A stretch of DNA of 33,903 nucleotides, from assembly GCA_903913355.1 (NCBI GenBank), contig CAIWKU010000226.1, positions 1 through 33,903 of the forward strand. The letters are read 5' to 3'. Position numbers and translations under genes: made by a program. The notes under the pieces are model-generated. The model was not told the origin of the DNA and did no database searches. It saw only the letters and a program-made list of their open reading frames with translations. This DNA is from an uncultured Bacteroidota bacterium (lineage in GTDB: Bacteria > Bacteroidota > Bacteroidia > Chitinophagales > Chitinophagaceae). Below are positions 4,953 to 19,347 of the stretch, piece by piece. Positions within the stretch are counted from its first letter, which is position 1, and each line of letters starts with the position of its first letter.

Positions 4953-5891
4953 TTAATGCATCCGATAACCCAATTGTATAGAACCATAACGCTGCGGGTT
5001 TTTTTGTGCCTCTGCCTCCCGGCTTTGATAAATGATTGCTAAACGGGTAGTCCAGCGCCCTTTTGCAAAACATAATCCCCAGGCCTGCTGAAACATCCAT
5101 CTTTTTGTTTTACCCAATACGGCAGAATCTCCTTTGCTAAAAAGCCCGCCTTCCACCGTTGCATTATATGCCTGAAGAATCATTTGTGGATACCAGTAAA
5201 AAAACAATTCTGTTTTCCCTTCTCCCGGTTTATTATCCACCCTGGCATTCCATAATGCGCTATTGGCGTTTTCATTAAACTCTCCCAGGCTGGTATAGGC
5301 CCCAAGACTGGCATTGGTAAATGTACTGCCCAGTTTTGCCTCTCCTGCCGGCATCACCTTAAGCCAATGATTATATTCCAGCAATGTTCGGCTATACATA
5401 AGATTTAGGTCTATTCCCGCCGCATCCCTTACCTGGGTGTTCCAACCGGCAAACCTGCTATACCCTAATAATTTATGATACCCGTTCTGTACGTCCTCAC
5501 CAAAAGAAGCCGGCCCAACAATACCCAATGAAGCGCCATATTGAAGAACACTACCCGCTTCAGGAAAAGAAGTCTGGTCAAGTTTCGCAAAAAGATACCC
5601 GCAATAAGGCCTGTCAATATCTTTTGCACTGGTATACGCTTCTTTCAACGGAGTATAGATCATTTGCCCGAATTCAAAAGATCGGATCGTTTTCCTATCC
5701 TTGCTTTCCAATGCGCGGGTTTCCTTAACAAAAAAACCATTGGTATAATAGGCATCTGCTTTTCTAAGCAAATAAGCATCGTTTTCCGTTGTAAAAGAGA
5801 GTTCTTTATTGTACAGATCTCTGCCCGACTGGGCAAATACGTCCATGGTCAAAATCAAGCAACCCAATATGATCAACCCTTGTTTTTTCAT
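4953..5891 (-). CDS. Lipid A deacylase LpxR-family-like (DUF2219) outer-membrane protein
   Basis: Signal peptide then ELSFTTENDAYLLRKADAYYTNGFF, resembling the LpxR/DUF2219 N-terminus (…NDxYxxxDxYYTNG); beta-barrel-like remainder. Confidence 0.72.
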   Translation of the reverse strand: MKKQGLIILGCLILTMDVFAQSGRDLYNKELSFTTENDAYLLRKADAYYTNGFFVKETRALESKDRKTIRSFEFGQMIYTPLKEAYTSAKDIDRPYCGYLFAKLDQTSFPEAGSVLQYGASLGIVGPASFGEDVQNGYHKLLGYSRFAGWNTQVRDAAGIDLNLMYSRTLLEYNHWLKVMPAGEAKLGSTFTNASLGAYTSLGEFNENANSALWNARVDNKPGEGKTELFFYWYPQMILQAYNATVEGGLFSKGDSAVLGKTKRWMFQQAWGLCFAKGRWTTRLAIIYQSREAEAQKNPQRYGSIQLGYRMH

Positions 5892-11195: not shown

Positions 11196-11235
11196 TATGT
11201 GGTCTGATTTTTGTCTCCAGATTACGAATTTCACT

Positions 11236-11610
11236 ATGTCTGAATATCCTAAATTATATAACCTGGTTATCCTGGAAGAGTTGGGAGACCCATCGGCTAT
11301 TCTGGAAGTGCTTTCCATGTTTTTTGACAGCGCTCCCAATGATATTCAAGAGCTGGAAAAGTTGTTTGTTGAGAAAAAAGCTATTCCGCTTAGTCAGTTA
11401 GCCCACAAAATAAAAACCGTTGTTTCGCTTTTACAATCGTTTCGTTTAATCGACCTCTTGAAAACAATTGAAACCCGCACCAAAGAAACGGGGGACGTAG
11501 CTATTGTAGCAAAAGAGGTGGCTGAAGTGGTTTCTCTTTTTGCAGAATTGGAAAAACAACTACACCAGGAATGGGAAAGATTGAAAAAAGAACAGTCAAC
11601 CCATCACTGA
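11236..11610 (+). CDS. Stand-alone Hpt (histidine phosphotransfer) domain protein
   Basis: Small all-alpha protein with LSQLAHKIKTVVSLLQSF (Hpt AHxLK-type motif; His57 from ATG at 11236). ORF extends to 11197. Confidence 0.75.
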   Translation: MSEYPKLYNLVILEELGDPSAILEVLSMFFDSAPNDIQELEKLFVEKKAIPLSQLAHKIKTVVSLLQSFRLIDLLKTIETRTKETGDVAIVAKEVAEVVSLFAELEKQLHQEWERLKKEQSTHH

Positions 11611-11647
11611 AGTGTTTATCATTCATTAAAACTGTCAGAGTCAGCGT

Positions 11648-12022
11648 ATGACAATACTTGTCGCAGAAGACGAACCTATGTTACTCAAAACCATTGAGTT
11701 AAAATTGAAGAAAGAAGGGTATGAGGTAATTGCCACCGCCGATGGTCGCGAAGCAATTGAGAAAATAGAAGCGTCTAGTCCCGATATGGTGATTACCGAT
11801 ATTATGATGCCTTTCTCTTCCGGACTTGAGATTATTTCTTTGGTACGCCAAAAAATAAAAAAGAAGATCCCGATCATTATTCTTTCTGCCATAGAGCAGG
11901 AAAAAGTTGTGCTGGAAGCTTTTGAACTAGGGGCCGATGATTATATCACAAAACCTTTTAGCCTCAACGAACTAACAATACGAGTAAAAAAATTAATGAT
12001 TCAATCTCAAAGAAATGGCTAA
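11648..12022 (+). CDS. Single-domain response regulator (CheY-like receiver, no output domain)
   Basis: TILVAEDEPMLLKT acidic pair, phosphoacceptor D51 in VITDIMMPFSSGLE, S80 (ILSA) and K102 (YITKPF); protein ends right after the REC fold (124 aa). Confidence 0.95.
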   Translation: MTILVAEDEPMLLKTIELKLKKEGYEVIATADGREAIEKIEASSPDMVITDIMMPFSSGLEIISLVRQKIKKKIPIIILSAIEQEKVVLEAFELGADDYITKPFSLNELTIRVKKLMIQSQRNG

Positions 12023-12061
12023 CACCAATTATTTATTTCCAAAATATTACCCTGCCCTGGT

Positions 12062-13327
12062 ATGACTATTTCTTTTCAAAAAAGATATTTCTGTTTATGC
12101 CTCTTGCTTACCCTTGCGCTTGGTGTTGCTGCACAGGAGCAGGATACGCTTAGCTCGGATGGATTATTACTGGCTGCCCGACACAGGGCATTTGAAAAAA
12201 ACGATTACCCAAAAGCAAAAGAATATTTATACAAAGCTTTGCTAATCAGTCCCAACTATGCCGATATCCGCATATTTCTCGGGCGAATTCATACCTGGAC
12301 AAAAAACTACGACAGTGCCAGATATTATTTTTCATCGGTCTTAGATAAAGACCCTTCATATGAAGATGCTTCTGCTGCATTGGCCGATCTGGAATACTGG
12401 ACAGATAATAATAAAGTATCGCTGGCGGTTTGTGAAACGGGATTAAAATATCATCCGGCTTCTCAAACGCTGTTGGTGAAAAAAGCACGTGTTTTGTATG
12501 AATTAAAGCAATATCCGGATGCGGAACTGACTATAGAAAAAGCTTTAAACATTAATAAAAACAATACCGAAGTAAGGGCCTGGTCAAGCAGGATCAAAGA
12601 ATCCTCTTTAAAAAACAAAATCAGCTTTGATTATGATTATGTTTATTTCGATAAGCAGTTTGCCAACCCCTGGCACCAGGCAAGTTTTGATTATACCCGA
12701 GTAACGGGTATCGGTTCAGTAACCGGCAGAATTAACTATGCAAATCGATTTACTGAAAATGGTGTTCAATACGAAATAGAAGCCTATCCGCATATATCCA
12801 AAACTTTCTATGCTTATCTGAACGCAGGATATTCTGCCAATGATGGTGTTTTTCCGGGATGGCGTGGTGGGTTTTCCCTATACGCCAATCTGCCCAAAAG
12901 TTATGAAGGAGAATTGGGGGTTCGTTATCTGCAATTTTCAGGTTCGCCTACCTGGATATATACTGGCTACCTGGGTAAATATTATAAAAGTTGGCTCTTT
13001 GGCGCCAGGGCCTATCTTACCCCTAGCACTTATACCAGCACACCCTCCGCATCTTATACAGCTTCAGCAAGATATTATTATGGCGGAGCGGATGAGTGGT
13101 TGGGCTTTACTGGCGGTTATGGCATTTCTCCGGATGACAGATTGAATTCTATTTTGTTAGATAGTAAAATACGGCTACTCACTTATAAAGTCGGCGCCTC
13201 TTATAGAAAAAAAATATCCCGCTTAAATGTATTGAGCGCCGATATTACCTGGTATAATCAGGAATACCTTCCCGGATCTTATGGAAACCAATATCAATTA
13301 AGCATTGGATGGCTACATCGCTTTTAA
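12062..13327 (+). CDS. YaiO-family outer-membrane beta-barrel protein with N-terminal TPR repeats
   Basis: Signal peptide (LCLLLTLALGVAAQEQ), TPR-like repeats (YPKAKEYLYKALLISPNYADIRIFLGRIHTWTKNYDSARYYFSSVLDKDPSYEDASAALADLEYW), then Tyr/aromatic-alternating barrel ending YQLSIGWLHRF. Confidence 0.85.
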   Translation: MTISFQKRYFCLCLLLTLALGVAAQEQDTLSSDGLLLAARHRAFEKNDYPKAKEYLYKALLISPNYADIRIFLGRIHTWTKNYDSARYYFSSVLDKDPSYEDASAALADLEYWTDNNKVSLAVCETGLKYHPASQTLLVKKARVLYELKQYPDAELTIEKALNINKNNTEVRAWSSRIKESSLKNKISFDYDYVYFDKQFANPWHQASFDYTRVTGIGSVTGRINYANRFTENGVQYEIEAYPHISKTFYAYLNAGYSANDGVFPGWRGGFSLYANLPKSYEGELGVRYLQFSGSPTWIYTGYLGKYYKSWLFGARAYLTPSTYTSTPSASYTASARYYYGGADEWLGFTGGYGISPDDRLNSILLDSKIRLLTYKVGASYRKKISRLNVLSADITWYNQEYLPGSYGNQYQLSIGWLHRF

Positions 13328-14490
13328 ACAAACCGAAGATCTCCTGGCTCCAAGCATTGATTGTTCTGGTGCTTTTACTGCCTTTATGGATGTCGTTATC
13401 CTGGTTCTTCACAAAAAAAAGAATATTAGTTGCTGCTGTAATTGATAAAACGGTACTTACACAAAATGGCCAGGAGCATATTTCTCTTACCTGGGTTTTG
13501 AACCACGAAAAATTTACAAAAAACGATCGTTCCCTATATAATAATAAGCGCGACTATTTTGGTTTCTTTCCCGAAGAAAAAGAGGAATTCAGGTTAAAAG
13601 GATTAGAGCGTTTTTCAAATGATAAACTTACCCAACTTAGTAATGATGCCGATCTGGCTTATATCACCGATTCCTATGGTATCTATAAAAACGAATGGTA
13701 CAAACAAGGTGACGCGAAAGAAAGATCAGGAATGGTATACGGGGGAATGAGTAAACAGGATTTGTTTTTATTACAAAAAATGAAAGAAAAACATAAGTTG
13801 GTGATTACCGAATTCAATTGCCTCGGATCACCAACCGATTCTTCTGTAAGAAATGGTTTTGAAAATACATTTGGTATTCATTGGTCGGGTTGGATAGGTC
13901 GCTATTTTGATTCATTTGATACAACAAAGAATAAAGAACTTCCCCGCTGGCTGATCTATAATTATAAAATAAGGCACCACGGCGAATGGCCTTTCAAAAA
14001 AAGCGGGATTGCATTTATTCATTCCGATGACCGTGTGGTGATCCTTGAAAACGATACACACTTGGTTAACGACCTTCCGCATATATATGCTTCAACAGAG
14101 GCTATTACCGAGTATGGTGTTCCCGAAAAAATCCATTATGCTTTCTGGTTTGATGTGATTTCTGTGGATACAACTATCAATAAAATAATTGCTCACTATC
14201 AAATTGATGCAAACAAACCCGGGCTGGCGGTTCTTGCAGAAAATGGAATACCCGCACAGTTTCCGGCCATTACCATTCATAGTAACAAGGATTATCGGTT
14301 CTTTTATTTTTCCGGAGATTTTTGTGATAATCCCATCGAATTAGGCAGTTCTTATTTTACTGGGGTTCATTTTTTTCGTTGGTTTATGTACAATAAACTG
14401 GACCCCCAGGAGCGTAAAAGTTTTTTCTGGACCTTCTATCGCCCCCTGGTGAGTAAGATTTTGAACGAGTATTATTCATTGAAACTTTGA
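13309..14490 (+). CDS. Uncharacterised protein with a single N-terminal membrane anchor, predicted periplasmic
   Basis: One TM (ALIVLVLLLPLWMSLSWFF) followed by a large soluble domain with DLAYITDSYGIY, LVITEFNCLGSPTDSSVRNGFENTFGIHWSGWIGRYFDSF. Starts 19 bp inside the upstream YaiO gene. Confidence 0.8.
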   Translation: MATSLLNKPKISWLQALIVLVLLLPLWMSLSWFFTKKRILVAAVIDKTVLTQNGQEHISLTWVLNHEKFTKNDRSLYNNKRDYFGFFPEEKEEFRLKGLERFSNDKLTQLSNDADLAYITDSYGIYKNEWYKQGDAKERSGMVYGGMSKQDLFLLQKMKEKHKLVITEFNCLGSPTDSSVRNGFENTFGIHWSGWIGRYFDSFDTTKNKELPRWLIYNYKIRHHGEWPFKKSGIAFIHSDDRVVILENDTHLVNDLPHIYASTEAITEYGVPEKIHYAFWFDVISVDTTINKIIAHYQIDANKPGLAVLAENGIPAQFPAITIHSNKDYRFFYFSGDFCDNPIELGSSYFTGVHFFRWFMYNKLDPQERKSFFWTFYRPLVSKILNEYYSLKL

Positions 14491-14497
14491 TTGATCC

Positions 14498-17400
14498 TTA
14501 GTGAGGTCGGAACTTTAGCAAAATACTATCGGGTACAATTTTAAGGCTTCCCTGAATCTGCCTGTTCTTTGCAAGAAAGGCATTGAAGGCTGCTGTTAAT
14601 TCATTTTGTTTGTCGGGATTCTGTTCCGGCGTTAGCTCCATATTCTGTCCTATACGAAACAGGTTATTGTTGCTTAACATAAACCCACCTTTAATAAAAT
14701 CAACCAGATCATTTTTGGTTTGCATGATTGGATAAGCATGGATATTTCTAAAACCTCTGGTAGTATCCAAGCCTGTACCCATCCAACTGGCCACAGAAGG
14801 GGTTTTTATTTTATAGGATTTCTTCAACCAGGCAAGCAGGCTTGGGGTTATATCAAAATGTGTTGAGATAGAAGAAAAACGAGCCGTTCTTTTTAGTAAT
14901 GGAGAATAGATTATCAGGGGTACATGGTACCTGTCTATTTTATTATTCATGGGTATTTCCGGCATCCGGTGATCTCCTGTGATCAGAAAAACCGTGTTGG
15001 CAAAATCCGGTCTTTTACTGTATTCATGTATAAAATTATTTATTGCATCATCCATGTACAAGATACTGGCAAATTGATATTGATAGTTTCTTCTTTGTTT
15101 TTTAACCTCCTCTGTTAATCCCAATGCAGTCATCCTGTCTTCGAATTTCTGAAGATATTTAGCCTGTTCATTAATCTTAAACGGATCATGTGTTGAAACC
15201 GTCAGGATAATATTTACCGAAGGCTTTCCCGAAGTCGGGCTTTTTTGTGTTAGCTCCATATAATGCCGAAACAACTCTTTATCACCATATCCCCAGGTAA
15301 ACCCATTTTGAGAAGGCATTTTGGTATAACCAGCCGGGAAGCTTTTTCCATCATTAATAAAACCAATAGTATTCTTCCTAAGAAACACATCCATATTATC
15401 AAACTGAGATTCGCCGCCATAATAAAAAGAACTTGTATATCCATTATGTTCAAGCACGTTTAGAAGGGAGAGGTGGGGTGGCATACGATTACCTAATTCA
15501 TTAAACCCGTTTTTTGTAAATGGTAAAGAACCTACTAAAGAAGGTAGCACCGCAAAAGTTCTACCTCCTTCACTTAGAAAATTTTGCCAATAAAGACTTT
15601 TCCCGGCCAGGGAATCTATAAAAGGAGTAAAATTTCCCAGATAAGCCCCCTCATTTGTAAATGCCCTGCCCAATCCTTCCACCAGCAGAATCACAATATT
15701 GGGAGGAGTCTGTTTATGATTAAAAAATGGCGATAGCACATCAACAGAAGTATCGACAGAATGAAGAAACGGGTAATTTTTTTCATCTATATAGCGAAAT
15801 ATAGAAGAATCGTTTTTTGTATTACCAACAGCATAATCGCCAGAATAAGCATCTGAATAAATATCCGTTTCAACAGCCGGCGGGAAAAAATATTGATAAC
15901 TCTTAGAGAAAAAATAATCTGCTTTATTAATCGACAAATTGTTACTGTATTCCTGTCCGGGTAGCCATGAATCCGTCAAGTCTGCAATACCTGATCCACT
16001 TAGAAAAATAAAAAAGATAAATAACACAAAAGAGGCCAGCCCTCTTATTTTTATCCTGGGCGGGAAGTAGATAAATGCGCCGATCGACAATGCGACCAAT
16101 ACAACAAGAATCAGGATCAAAGAAATGGGAACGCCACCCGATGCTCCAACAGTTTGCCGGATATCTGCTATCGAATATACCCAGAGATCGGCACCAAGGG
16201 GCACGAGCGTCTTAATAAAATATTGCGAAAGCAATAGCTGAATCAATACCAAAACAATGGCGCCTACAATAAATAGCGTTTTCGCGATTTTTTCCTTTAT
16301 CAGAAATAAAAAACTAAACACAAGGAATATTGGCGCAATTATTTTCAGAAAAAATGAAAAGTCTTTTGCAAAACCATACAATACCACTTTCCAAAAAAAA
16401 GCCGGAGTGCCATGTTGAGAATAATCAATAGCTAACTCAATCCCTCTGGCAAATAATAGTAATCCCAGTAAAACAAAAACAAGACTGCTATACTCCGTAA
16501 AAGATCTGGAAATAAACAGTACCGCTTTTGAAATCGCCGGAACAATGCTTCTTTCCAAAAGTGATGCTGCATGATTCTTTTTAGGTATTTCAGGAACCGT
16601 TTTTTCTTGGAGTGCTGGTGTATTTTGGGAGCCTGGAGAGATGGGTATTGGGGCCGATTCTGTTTTTTTAGCAAATCCCTGCCTGGTCATCTCACCCCAG
16701 CTTTTCTCCTTTTTGAAAAGATCAAACAGTCCCTTAATCGCACTCCAAACCACAAATGGATGATAATAGAATGGTTCGGTAAGTCCAGTAAGCATTAATC
16801 GTAGAATATCAATCCTTCGTCTGTATTGATTGAACGTGACAACCTCCATTAAAATAGCAAAACAGGAATAGAGATAGCTGAAAAAAATAATAAAGAAAAA
16901 ATAGGTTAAGAAAAATCCCCAATCCATCATTCCGAGTAATGCAAAAATCAGAAAACAGATAAACCCAAAAAATTCGATTGCGGGGGCGCACAATTCAAAA
17001 AAGAACCAATATGGATAACTCAGCATGCCCAATAGATTGTACCTGGGATTGAAGAACATGATCCGGTGAAAATATAATGTTTCAAAGGTTCCCCTTATCC
17101 ATCGGTTACGCTGCCTTCCCAAAATCTGGAATGAGGCGGGTGCTTCAGTCCAGCACAAAGGATCTGGTATATAAGTAACCACATATTCCTCTCCTCTCTC
17201 TTCCATCAGTCTCCGCATCCTTACCACCAGCTCCATATCTTCTCCTACCGTGTTGGTATTATATCCTCCGCATTGTATGGCGATCTCTTTATCAAAAGCA
17301 CCAAAAGCACCGGATATTAGCATCAGTCCATTTAATCGGGTCCAGGCCATTCTTCCTAAAATAAATGCCCGTATATATTCGAGTATCTGTATCTGTGGGA

Positions 17401-18088
17401 GATAATCATCTGCTAATTTTATTTTCACCAGTCGGCCTTCTTCAATAGTGCAGGAGTTGGCAATTCTTACGACCCCTCCACTCGCTATTACTCTTTTATC
17501 AGTCTGTTCTAAAAAGGGTTTGATCATTTTTAGAAGTGCGTCCTGCTCCAATATACAATCCACGTCTATGCAAACCAGGTAATCATTCGATGAAATATTG
17601 ATACCCACATTCAATGCATCTGCTTTCCCGCCGTTTACCTTATCTACCACTATCAGTTTATGGTAAATACTATTCCGGCTTTTATAGACTCCCCTTACTT
17701 CTTTTGTGTCAATTTGCTGCTGTATAAAAAAATCAATCTTTTCCAGGTCATAGGCTTCTATCAGCTTGTCGAGACTGTCATCTTTACTTCCATCATTAAT
17801 AATAATCACTTCCAGATTGGTATAATAAATAGATAATAGAGAACGAACATTTTCAACAATATTCAACCCCTCATTATACGCCGGCGCCAGTATACTAACC
17901 GTTGGGGCATGAACAGATGCAGCCAGCACCCGAAAATCGGTAAATGCATTTTTTCGCAAATGCTTTTGCGTTTCACCTATTGAGTATAATCCGATAAGTA
18001 CATAGGAAAGCAGCAACACAACAGAATAAATAAATATTCCATAAGTTAAAATATCAAATAATATTTTCGCCGCTATTTGTACAATCAT
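14498..18088 (-). CDS. Fusion protein: N-terminal processive GT2 glycosyltransferase + C-terminal LTA-synthase/sulfatase-type (alkaline-phosphatase superfamily) domain
   Basis: GT2: VIINDGSKDDS, VCIDVDCILEQD (DxD), VGEDMEL, RQRNRWIRGT (QxxRW) plus TM segments. Linker around aa 463-525. Then about 5 TM and IVILLVEGLGRAFTNEG…SEGGRTFAVLPSLVGSLPF…VSTHDPF…FLITGDHRMPE of LTAS/sulfatase-like enzymes. Confidence 0.93.
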   Translation of the reverse strand: MIVQIAAKILFDILTYGIFIYSVVLLLSYVLIGLYSIGETQKHLRKNAFTDFRVLAASVHAPTVSILAPAYNEGLNIVENVRSLLSIYYTNLEVIIINDGSKDDSLDKLIEAYDLEKIDFFIQQQIDTKEVRGVYKSRNSIYHKLIVVDKVNGGKADALNVGINISSNDYLVCIDVDCILEQDALLKMIKPFLEQTDKRVIASGGVVRIANSCTIEEGRLVKIKLADDYLPQIQILEYIRAFILGRMAWTRLNGLMLISGAFGAFDKEIAIQCGGYNTNTVGEDMELVVRMRRLMEERGEEYVVTYIPDPLCWTEAPASFQILGRQRNRWIRGTFETLYFHRIMFFNPRYNLLGMLSYPYWFFFELCAPAIEFFGFICFLIFALLGMMDWGFFLTYFFFIIFFSYLYSCFAILMEVVTFNQYRRRIDILRLMLTGLTEPFYYHPFVVWSAIKGLFDLFKKEKSWGEMTRQGFAKKTESAPIPISPGSQNTPALQEKTVPEIPKKNHAASLLERSIVPAISKAVLFISRSFTEYSSLVFVLLGLLLFARGIELAIDYSQHGTPAFFWKVVLYGFAKDFSFFLKIIAPIFLVFSFLFLIKEKIAKTLFIVGAIVLVLIQLLLSQYFIKTLVPLGADLWVYSIADIRQTVGASGGVPISLILILVVLVALSIGAFIYFPPRIKIRGLASFVLFIFFIFLSGSGIADLTDSWLPGQEYSNNLSINKADYFFSKSYQYFFPPAVETDIYSDAYSGDYAVGNTKNDSSIFRYIDEKNYPFLHSVDTSVDVLSPFFNHKQTPPNIVILLVEGLGRAFTNEGAYLGNFTPFIDSLAGKSLYWQNFLSEGGRTFAVLPSLVGSLPFTKNGFNELGNRMPPHLSLLNVLEHNGYTSSFYYGGESQFDNMDVFLRKNTIGFINDGKSFPAGYTKMPSQNGFTWGYGDKELFRHYMELTQKSPTSGKPSVNIILTVSTHDPFKINEQAKYLQKFEDRMTALGLTEEVKKQRRNYQYQFASILYMDDAINNFIHEYSKRPDFANTVFLITGDHRMPEIPMNNKIDRYHVPLIIYSPLLKRTARFSSISTHFDITPSLLAWLKKSYKIKTPSVASWMGTGLDTTRGFRNIHAYPIMQTKNDLVDFIKGGFMLSNNNLFRIGQNMELTPEQNPDKQNELTAAFNAFLAKNRQIQGSLKIVPDSILLKFRPH

Positions 18089-19158
18089 CTCTTCAATACA
18101 GATTGAACATGAAATAAGATGGGTTGGTAGGGTGCCGGTATTTCACTTGCTTTTTGTTCAAGTATTTCCCAGCCGTCTGCATAATTATTTGCTATAATGA
18201 TGGCCGTTTTCAATTTTATCTGGTCATTGCTATGTTCCAATAATTGAATTAGTTGAGACTTTTCGTTTTCTGATACCTGGTCCTTTAACGAGTCTAATAT
18301 CCCCAATTGATTCGCCAATGATTCATTGGGCAGATGGGCCATTAATAAAGCAGGGATCGTTTCATCGGCCAATCTCTCTAATGTTTTTAAAGCCTGGTTT
18401 CTTACTGATACCGAAGGATGATTCAGGCAATTGATCACATTTTCCCGTAAACCAAATTGCTGGTATTCTCCGGCAAGTTTTAAACCAAATACCACTACTG
18501 TATCATTTTCAGATAATAACCAGTAGGGTATCCTGTCAGAAAGGTCTTCTTTTGGGGAAGAATGCTTAAGCTGTTCCAATAGTTTTATCTGCTGCCATCC
18601 AGTTAGGGGGTAGGTAATGATATCCAGAAAACGCAAGCCGGCAAAACCCGTTAGGTTAATCACTCCTGTTTGGGCTTCCATTCGAACATATTCATTGTCA
18701 CTATTGGTGCTCTTGTATAATTCGGGTAACATATCCCGCTGGTCCATCATATATATTTCCTGAATACCTTTTGCCCGTATATGCCAGCTTCTTTTCGAAT
18801 GCATTTTTTTAATGGAATCTGCTTTCAATCCCAAATGTTCATACAGCGCTACAATATTATTTGCCGCTACTCCTGAAAAATTTCGTTTACAGGCCAGCAG
18901 CTCCTCCATAACCAATTTCCGGGCCCAGGGGTTTTTCATCATCCGGTAAAACTTCTTAGGTAGAACAACAGATTCGAAAGAATCTTCCATAATAATCGCA
19001 CTAATCCAAACCTGCAGGTTCTTTGAAACACCGCCATTATATAAAAACACCCTTTTTTTATAATACAGATAGGCATAAATGACTACCACAATCAGCAGAA
19101 TGGCAAGGCCCAGTATTTTTATCCCTAAATACAGGTATTCCGGACTAATGTATTTCAT
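18085..19158 (-). CDS. Membrane-anchored HEAT-repeat protein
   Basis: N-terminal TM (LGIKILGLAILLIVVVIYAYLYY), then HEAT-like repeats (EYVRMEAQTGVINLTGFAGL…PSVSVRNQALKTLERLADETIPALL…SNDQIKLKTAIIIANNYA). ATG overlaps the GT2 gene by 4 bp at its 3' end. ORF extends to 19230. Confidence 0.78.
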   Translation of the reverse strand: MKYISPEYLYLGIKILGLAILLIVVVIYAYLYYKKRVFLYNGGVSKNLQVWISAIIMEDSFESVVLPKKFYRMMKNPWARKLVMEELLACKRNFSGVAANNIVALYEHLGLKADSIKKMHSKRSWHIRAKGIQEIYMMDQRDMLPELYKSTNSDNEYVRMEAQTGVINLTGFAGLRFLDIITYPLTGWQQIKLLEQLKHSSPKEDLSDRIPYWLLSENDTVVVFGLKLAGEYQQFGLRENVINCLNHPSVSVRNQALKTLERLADETIPALLMAHLPNESLANQLGILDSLKDQVSENEKSQLIQLLEHSNDQIKLKTAIIIANNYADGWEILEQKASEIPAPYQPILFHVQSVLKR

Positions 19159-19347
19159 TACCGTATTGGTAAAGAAGTTATCTAACAGGCAGGATTTTAC
19201 ACTAGTATGACTGATTCTAATCATTGGCATCCAACTAAAACGATTTCTCCGGACATTTATAGATTTGTCTTTCTTTCATTAAAAAAACGAACTTCATTAA
19301 AGTTAAGAAAACAATCCCTTTGTTCGGGTTTGCCGGAATAAAACTAA

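Follow-up and report, generated by a model that had tools for sequence, protein, structure and literature searches.

We analysed a set of six genes at positions 11197-19230 of contig CAIWKU010000226.1, from a Chitinophagaceae-like bacterium; the whole stretch from position 1 to 33,903 of this contig is hereafter called the window. The genes form two arrays. On the + strand, a lone Hpt domain protein with His70 (11197..11610; PF01627, 29.3 bits for a cut-off of 24.6) is followed by a single-domain response regulator (REC) that carries Asp51 and Lys102 and has no output domain (11648..12022; Response_reg PF00072, 102.9). Next come a candidate exporter combining TPR repeats with a YaiO outer-membrane beta-barrel (12062..13327; PF19413, 221.4 versus 23.9; TIGR04390, 179.7 versus 32) and a highly conserved, membrane-anchored, predicted periplasmic protein, named UNK here (13309..14490), which matches no Pfam or NCBIfam family. 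On the - strand, a HEAT-repeat protein with an N-terminal transmembrane segment (TM), predicted to be cytosolic (18085..19230; HEAT_2 PF13646, 30.2 for a cut-off of 27.7), precedes a single 1196-aa open reading frame (ORF; 14498..18088; Glycos_transf_2 and Sulfatase). In this ORF, a PgaC-like family 2 glycosyltransferase (GT2; ~residues 1-470) is fused to a five-TM, LTAS/OpgB-like transferase of the alkaline phosphatase (AP) superfamily (~residues 522-1196). The six ORFs and their domains had been proposed in an earlier note on this DNA; coordinates and strands are confirmed, and Pfam and NCBIfam agree. Comparison with homologous loci shows that HEAT and GT2 form the deeper core of the system, usually together with REC and YaiO, the six-gene set being one version of it.

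A HEAT protein is paired with a PgaC-like synthase

The GT2 half has the D, DxD, ED and QxxRW motifs of processive synthases (NDG at 98, DVD at 175, GED at 282 and QRNRW at 326 in the fusion) as well as flanking TMs, in line with the processive activity first proposed for it, and the motifs are invariant in 12 alignment rows. GT2 very likely makes a polymer. Among the E. coli synthases tested, PgaC is the closest (27% identity, E 2e-28), followed by YaiP (E 5e-9) and BcsA (E 4e-5). The best NCBIfam model is PgaC_IcaA, with 129.2 bits for an equivalog cut-off of 422.3, and the cellulose synthase equivalog TIGR03030 gives 34.9 for a cut-off of 699; on these cut-offs, both PNAG (poly-N-acetylglucosamine) and cellulose systems were rejected. 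The proximity to PgaC would suit a divergent pga system producing PNAG. However, the distance from the equivalog cut-off (129 versus 422), the absence of any deacetylase family among the six proteins and the flanking ORFs scanned, and a YaiO-type barrel without detectable similarity to PgaA make this origin highly improbable.

In 66 of the 68 loci with GT2, the HEAT gene lies directly upstream, at 30 nt or less in 63 of them; one of the two exceptions (L033) is truncated by a contig end. The pairing is found at 38 of 39 loci if only those chosen through GT2 are counted. The commonest junction, a 4-bp overlap (28 loci), is also that of the window (18085-18088). The charge around the HEAT TM is +4.2 on the C-terminal flank versus +0.9 on the N-terminal flank. 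Because the positive flank follows the TM, the repeats are predicted to be cytosolic, in the same compartment as REC and the GT2 catalytic domain. Being predicted cytosolic and paired with GT2, HEAT is more likely involved in control or assembly than in periplasmic processing, one of the steps for which the earlier note saw a candidate part in the locus. The pairing exceeds chance, since five other GT2 loci in the genome of the window have no HEAT, REC or YaiO within flanks of ~1.5 kb. The same genome encodes another large protein (L001:230-2824) that ends in a GT2 half, scoring 171 bits with the GT2 profile, and whose N-terminal part resembles, by eye, GH18 and polysaccharide deacetylase.

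Linkage and modules across Bacteroidota

With UNK as query, homologues were found in Chitinophaga, Mucilaginibacter, Foetidibacter, Desertivirga, Arenibacter and Puia; they are 48-64% identical, except for one near relative (95%). Cultivable environmental carriers encountered in the analysis include Chitinophaga sp. CF118, Mucilaginibacter sp. L3T2-6 and Desertivirga arenae. Among 396 genomes drawn evenly from the phylum, 15 (9 genera) have UNK, 39 (20 genera) have the AP subfamily and 95 (50 genera) have the GT2 subfamily. All six families occur together at 26 sampled loci, GT2 and AP being fused or separate, and in 8 arrangements if neither kinase genes nor the GT2-AP fusion are taken into account. 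Co-occurrence thus extends well beyond close relatives, so that the refuting condition set by the earlier note, its restriction to close relatives, does not apply. Since linkage survives rearrangement at many loci and in several families, it is extremely unlikely that these genes are accidental neighbours without common function.

The six-gene set does not behave as a fixed unit, which is where its first description has to be amended: the families are linked, but AP and UNK are accessories to a wider HEAT-GT2 system. YaiO lies near GT2 in 54 of the 68 loci. AP is present in 35 and UNK in 29, counts that reflect sampling from the neighbourhoods of UNK or GT2 hits rather than population frequencies. 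On the GT2 tree, at least 9 changes are needed for UNK and at least 11 for AP, as expected of accessories, repeatedly gained or lost, around a core that seems to be older. Over independent pairs, the UNK-AP association goes in one direction, with few pairs and a median p of 0.06. DUF4838 proteins stand beside YaiO and HEAT-GT2 at seven loci (L115, L116, L092, L089, L103, L108 and L124). Loci of this type mostly have neither AP nor UNK, and DUF4838 is an alternative accessory.

Pairwise distances point to two sub-modules. Correlations are 0.79-0.91 within HEAT-GT2-REC (HEAT-GT2 0.91, GT2-REC 0.84) and 0.90-0.94 within UNK-AP-YaiO (UNK-AP 0.90, AP-YaiO 0.94). The lowest values are found between the sub-modules (UNK-REC 0.52, YaiO-REC 0.54), yet AP-HEAT is high (0.88). 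The split is kept after thinning and after dropping L058, a locus with UNK, AP and YaiO typical of its relatives and distant REC, HEAT and GT2, which is a probable module chimera.

The HEAT-GT2 pair outside the phylum

In an annotated plasmid collection, used for the cross-phylum comparison, HEAT lies directly upstream of the GT2 subfamily on plasmids of Emticicia, Bacteroides finegoldii, Mesorhizobium, Erythrobacter, Deinococcus, Planococcus and Haloarcula, and the HEAT gene is named as such by the record's own annotation in six of these seven cases. The pair is thus seen in Alphaproteobacteria, Deinococcus, Bacillota and an archaeon. The archaeal Haloarcula plasmid (L126:4295-7242) has the order REC-HEAT-GT2 with sensor kinases adjacent. 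In the alphaproteobacterium Mesorhizobium, one cluster (L125:1-7545) gathers a kinase, two REC, YaiO, HEAT, GT2 and a lone Hpt, and much resembles the gene set of the window. On the Emticicia plasmid, YaiO and an 'LTA synthase family protein' are encoded as well. On the Planococcus plasmid (L130:1-7239), HEAT-GT2 follows genes for polyphosphate polymerase-domain, DUF4956 and CotH-kinase proteins.

In Paenibacillus cellulosilyticus (L127:1689-7317), a 1033-aa protein containing a UNK domain (E 2.6e-44) is encoded directly upstream of HEAT-GT2. This organism has no outer membrane, which argues against UNK being only a part of outer-membrane export. The C-terminal half of this protein was considered as a glycosidase, an assignment that is not established (best PDB match, E 0.049).

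Two-component proteins of the locus

A lone REC is found within 12 kb of GT2 in 56 of the 68 loci, with the phosphoacceptor Asp kept in 51 of the 56 and the Lys in 53. At L100 and L109, this Asp is replaced by Glu and a GGDEF-EAL protein is encoded next door, hinting at an exchange of input. A homologue of the GGDEF-EAL protein also lies beside HEAT-GT2 at L104. The absence of cyclic di-GMP (c-di-GMP) parts, claimed for the locus from the outset, holds as far as tested: GGDEF has no match in its assembly (G000, 96%-complete), in which PilZ was not searched genome-wide, and a Pfam scan found no c-di-GMP part among the locus proteins.

At three loci (L038, L039 and L059), a hybrid kinase sits between a sugar porter and REC. 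The L038-type kinase (~996 aa) has the architecture CHASE3-PAS-PAS-HisKA-HATPase-REC-Hpt, and the Hpt of the window is 42% identical to its residues 875-993. The window Hpt, which aligns with the end of this kinase, is thus a remnant of such a protein. As only the Hpt is left, the input must come from elsewhere. Two candidate hybrid kinases were found in the rest of the genome, on contigs C485 and C371, along with a single Hpt protein besides that of the locus. Hence, the local phosphorelay initially proposed stands in part: Hpt and REC are present and two-component parts recur across loci, but the relay is incomplete, its Hpt being a kinase remnant. At L060, a same-genus locus without YaiO, a GH16 gene (11423-12283) adjoins the lone Hpt.

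The conserved REC may act directly on the synthase or at a distance. We consider the chances to be even that phosphorylated REC acts through HEAT on GT2 post-translationally, as gene order and conservation suggest. In the alternative case, the same polysaccharide machine would be controlled indirectly, REC and Hpt relaying to a distant transcription factor and HEAT serving only in the assembly or stability of GT2. Lone RECs can be phosphorelay intermediates, the window REC belongs to the YaiO-UNK array, apart from HEAT-GT2, and HEAT-GT2 was found without a nearby REC at five loci (L102, L103, L104, L105 and L110), all of which would suit a relay. On the other hand, most loci have REC as the gene immediately before HEAT, both in Bacteroidota and in Haloarcula, the divergence of REC is correlated with those of HEAT and GT2, and none of the constant neighbours was recognised as an output regulator, so that indirect control is unlikely.

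The AP domain, UNK and YaiO

The AP half belongs to the LTAS/OpgB-like branch of its superfamily, as indicated by its active-site residues (E804, T844, H967, D1039-H1040 and H1055 in fusion numbering; columns E, T, H, D-H and H invariant in 13 rows) and its closest solved relatives. The PDB matches of its profile are VP1736 (3lxq, OpgB-like), LtaS and LtaP (entries 3lxq, 2w5r and 4uop). Matches to the LtaS and OpgB NCBIfam models are weak, with 40.6 for the LtaS equivalog (cut-off 970). An EptA/BcsG-type transferase was discarded, as no such chain is present among the PDB matches at E 0.001. With phosphoglycerol transferases as nearest relatives, the placement of AP in a family of phospho-group transferases, made in the earlier note, is supported. 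The fusion with GT2 highlighted there does exist in the window but is lineage-specific, the two being separate genes in most relatives. From these homologies, AP rather probably attaches a phospholipid head group to the polymer, phosphoglycerol being more likely than phosphoethanolamine. The genome of the window contains a second AP-domain fragment, which lies at the start of a contig (L114:1-1248; G000 contig C192).

A teichoic-acid-like pathway would instead have GT2 build a short glycolipid anchor on which the LTAS-like domain polymerises glycerol phosphate, with YaiO and UNK at the surface. It accords with the nearness of AP to LtaS/LtaP and OpgB-like proteins and with the fusion to GT2, and is countered by a PgaC-like GT2 endowed with QxxRW and a multi-TM C-terminus, by the lack of AP at about half of the homologous loci, and by a TPR-barrel-type exporter that it leaves unexplained. 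We therefore hold it to be very unlikely.

UNK is strongly conserved: nearly all of twenty aligned homologues exceed 50% identity to the window protein, and 26 residues are invariant across 35 alignment rows. The charge is +3.4 before its TM versus +1.7 after; because the positive flank precedes the TM, UNK is predicted to be periplasmic. In its AlphaFold2 (AF2) model (pLDDT 73.8), several conserved loops have a pLDDT below 50. Foldseek returned weak matches to GATase1-like domains, including Agd3 (6nwz) and the ThuA-like 4jqs. The N-terminal domain of Agd3 resembles 4JQS and binds exopolysaccharide (PMC7229062); therefore, a role of UNK in polymer binding or processing is our best guess, and we give it an even chance on the basis of this model. 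A function as amidase was rejected, the Cys following EFN not being conserved. For the TPR-barrel protein, both YaiO models score above their cut-offs and the linkage to GT2 suggests that the polymer is likely exported through it.

Proposed mechanism

Overall, it is somewhat probable that the six genes specify a synthase-dependent exopolysaccharide machine governed by two-component signalling, in which REC acts via HEAT on the synthase. In this mechanism, the PgaC-like GT2 would polymerise a sugar chain and move it across the inner membrane. HEAT, membrane-anchored with cytosolic repeats and translationally coupled to GT2, would be the synthase partner. Hybrid kinases, unlinked here and adjacent in relatives, would phosphorylate REC via Hpt, and phosphorylated REC would dock on HEAT and switch the synthase. 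On the outer side of the membrane, the polymer would receive a phospholipid-derived head group from the LTAS/OpgB-like domain, be bound or processed by the anchored UNK as it emerges, and leave through the TPR-YaiO barrel.

Several observations weigh against this mechanism. In the window, the local kinase is gone, the Hpt alone remaining 190 bp behind the sugar porter, and REC lies outside the HEAT-GT2 array. REC lacks the Asp in 5 of the 56 loci, and AP and UNK, sometimes YaiO or REC, are missing from homologous loci. Distance correlations such as those given above cannot tell interaction from shared inheritance. In addition, the AF2 model of GT2 is too poor to be used (pLDDT 57, from 9 rows), the fold assignment of UNK is weak (TM ~0.3), and promoter and terminator scans of the locus gave no more than shuffles, that is, chance level.

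Comparison with known systems

Synthase-dependent export is already known; the pairing of HEAT with REC and the UNK/AP set make this locus a variant of it, and no description of this combination was found in the open-access literature, subscription papers and preprints being outside the scope. Like the window, pgaABCD, bcs and nfrAB combine a processive inner-membrane GT2 with a TPR/beta-barrel outer-membrane protein. In contrast to them, the window has a HEAT partner and a lone REC with no recognised c-di-GMP receptor, an LTAS-like enzyme and UNK instead of a deacetylase/hydrolase or BcsB, and a barrel of the YaiO type. In the E. coli yaiO-yaiX-yaiP-yaiS region, YaiO likewise adjoins a GT2, YaiP, which is far less similar to the window GT2 than PgaC is; no HEAT, REC or AP gene is annotated in the stretch viewed, and the annotation gives no function. 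LtaS/OpgB-like phosphoglycerol transferases share with the window the AP-superfamily domain, the conserved active-site residues and a multi-TM N-terminus, but the window AP falls far under both equivalog cut-offs and is fused to GT2. The UNK model matches Agd3 (CE18) and 4JQS, and the N-terminal carbohydrate-binding domain of Agd3 has also been compared with 4JQS (PMC7229062); the match of UNK is weak and structural only, and UNK differs in its membrane anchor and in lacking a deacetylase domain.

The closest precedent for control is a recent one from Myxococcus xanthus, where the single-domain response regulator EpsW activates the exopolysaccharide enzyme EpsZ post-translationally (PMC12802240). 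EpsZ differs in being a phosphoglycosyl transferase of the Wzx/Wzy pathway, and no HEAT adaptor appears in the passages considered (PMC12802240). For the window GT2, gene adjacency and conservation are what would suggest an EpsW-type control. According to the same paper, c-di-GMP accounts for most of what has been described of how synthase-dependent polysaccharides are controlled after translation (PMC12802240), yet the genome of the window gives no GGDEF match.

More broadly, HEAT-GT2 could be a synthase core common to bacteria and archaea, often switched post-translationally by phosphorylated REC via HEAT, independent of c-di-GMP and equipped with swappable decoration modules (AP, UNK, DUF4838), a generalisation that we regard as possible but put slightly below even. 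If true, the REC-HEAT-GT2 switch would explain how matrix or surface polymers are activated in such bacteria and possibly in haloarchaea. It would also give a setting to YaiO barrels, named but unexplained in databases, and predict phosphorylated polymers in environmental Bacteroidota.

Elsewhere in the window, an LpxR-family gene (4953-5891) adjoins carbon-nitrogen hydrolase and amidohydrolase genes.

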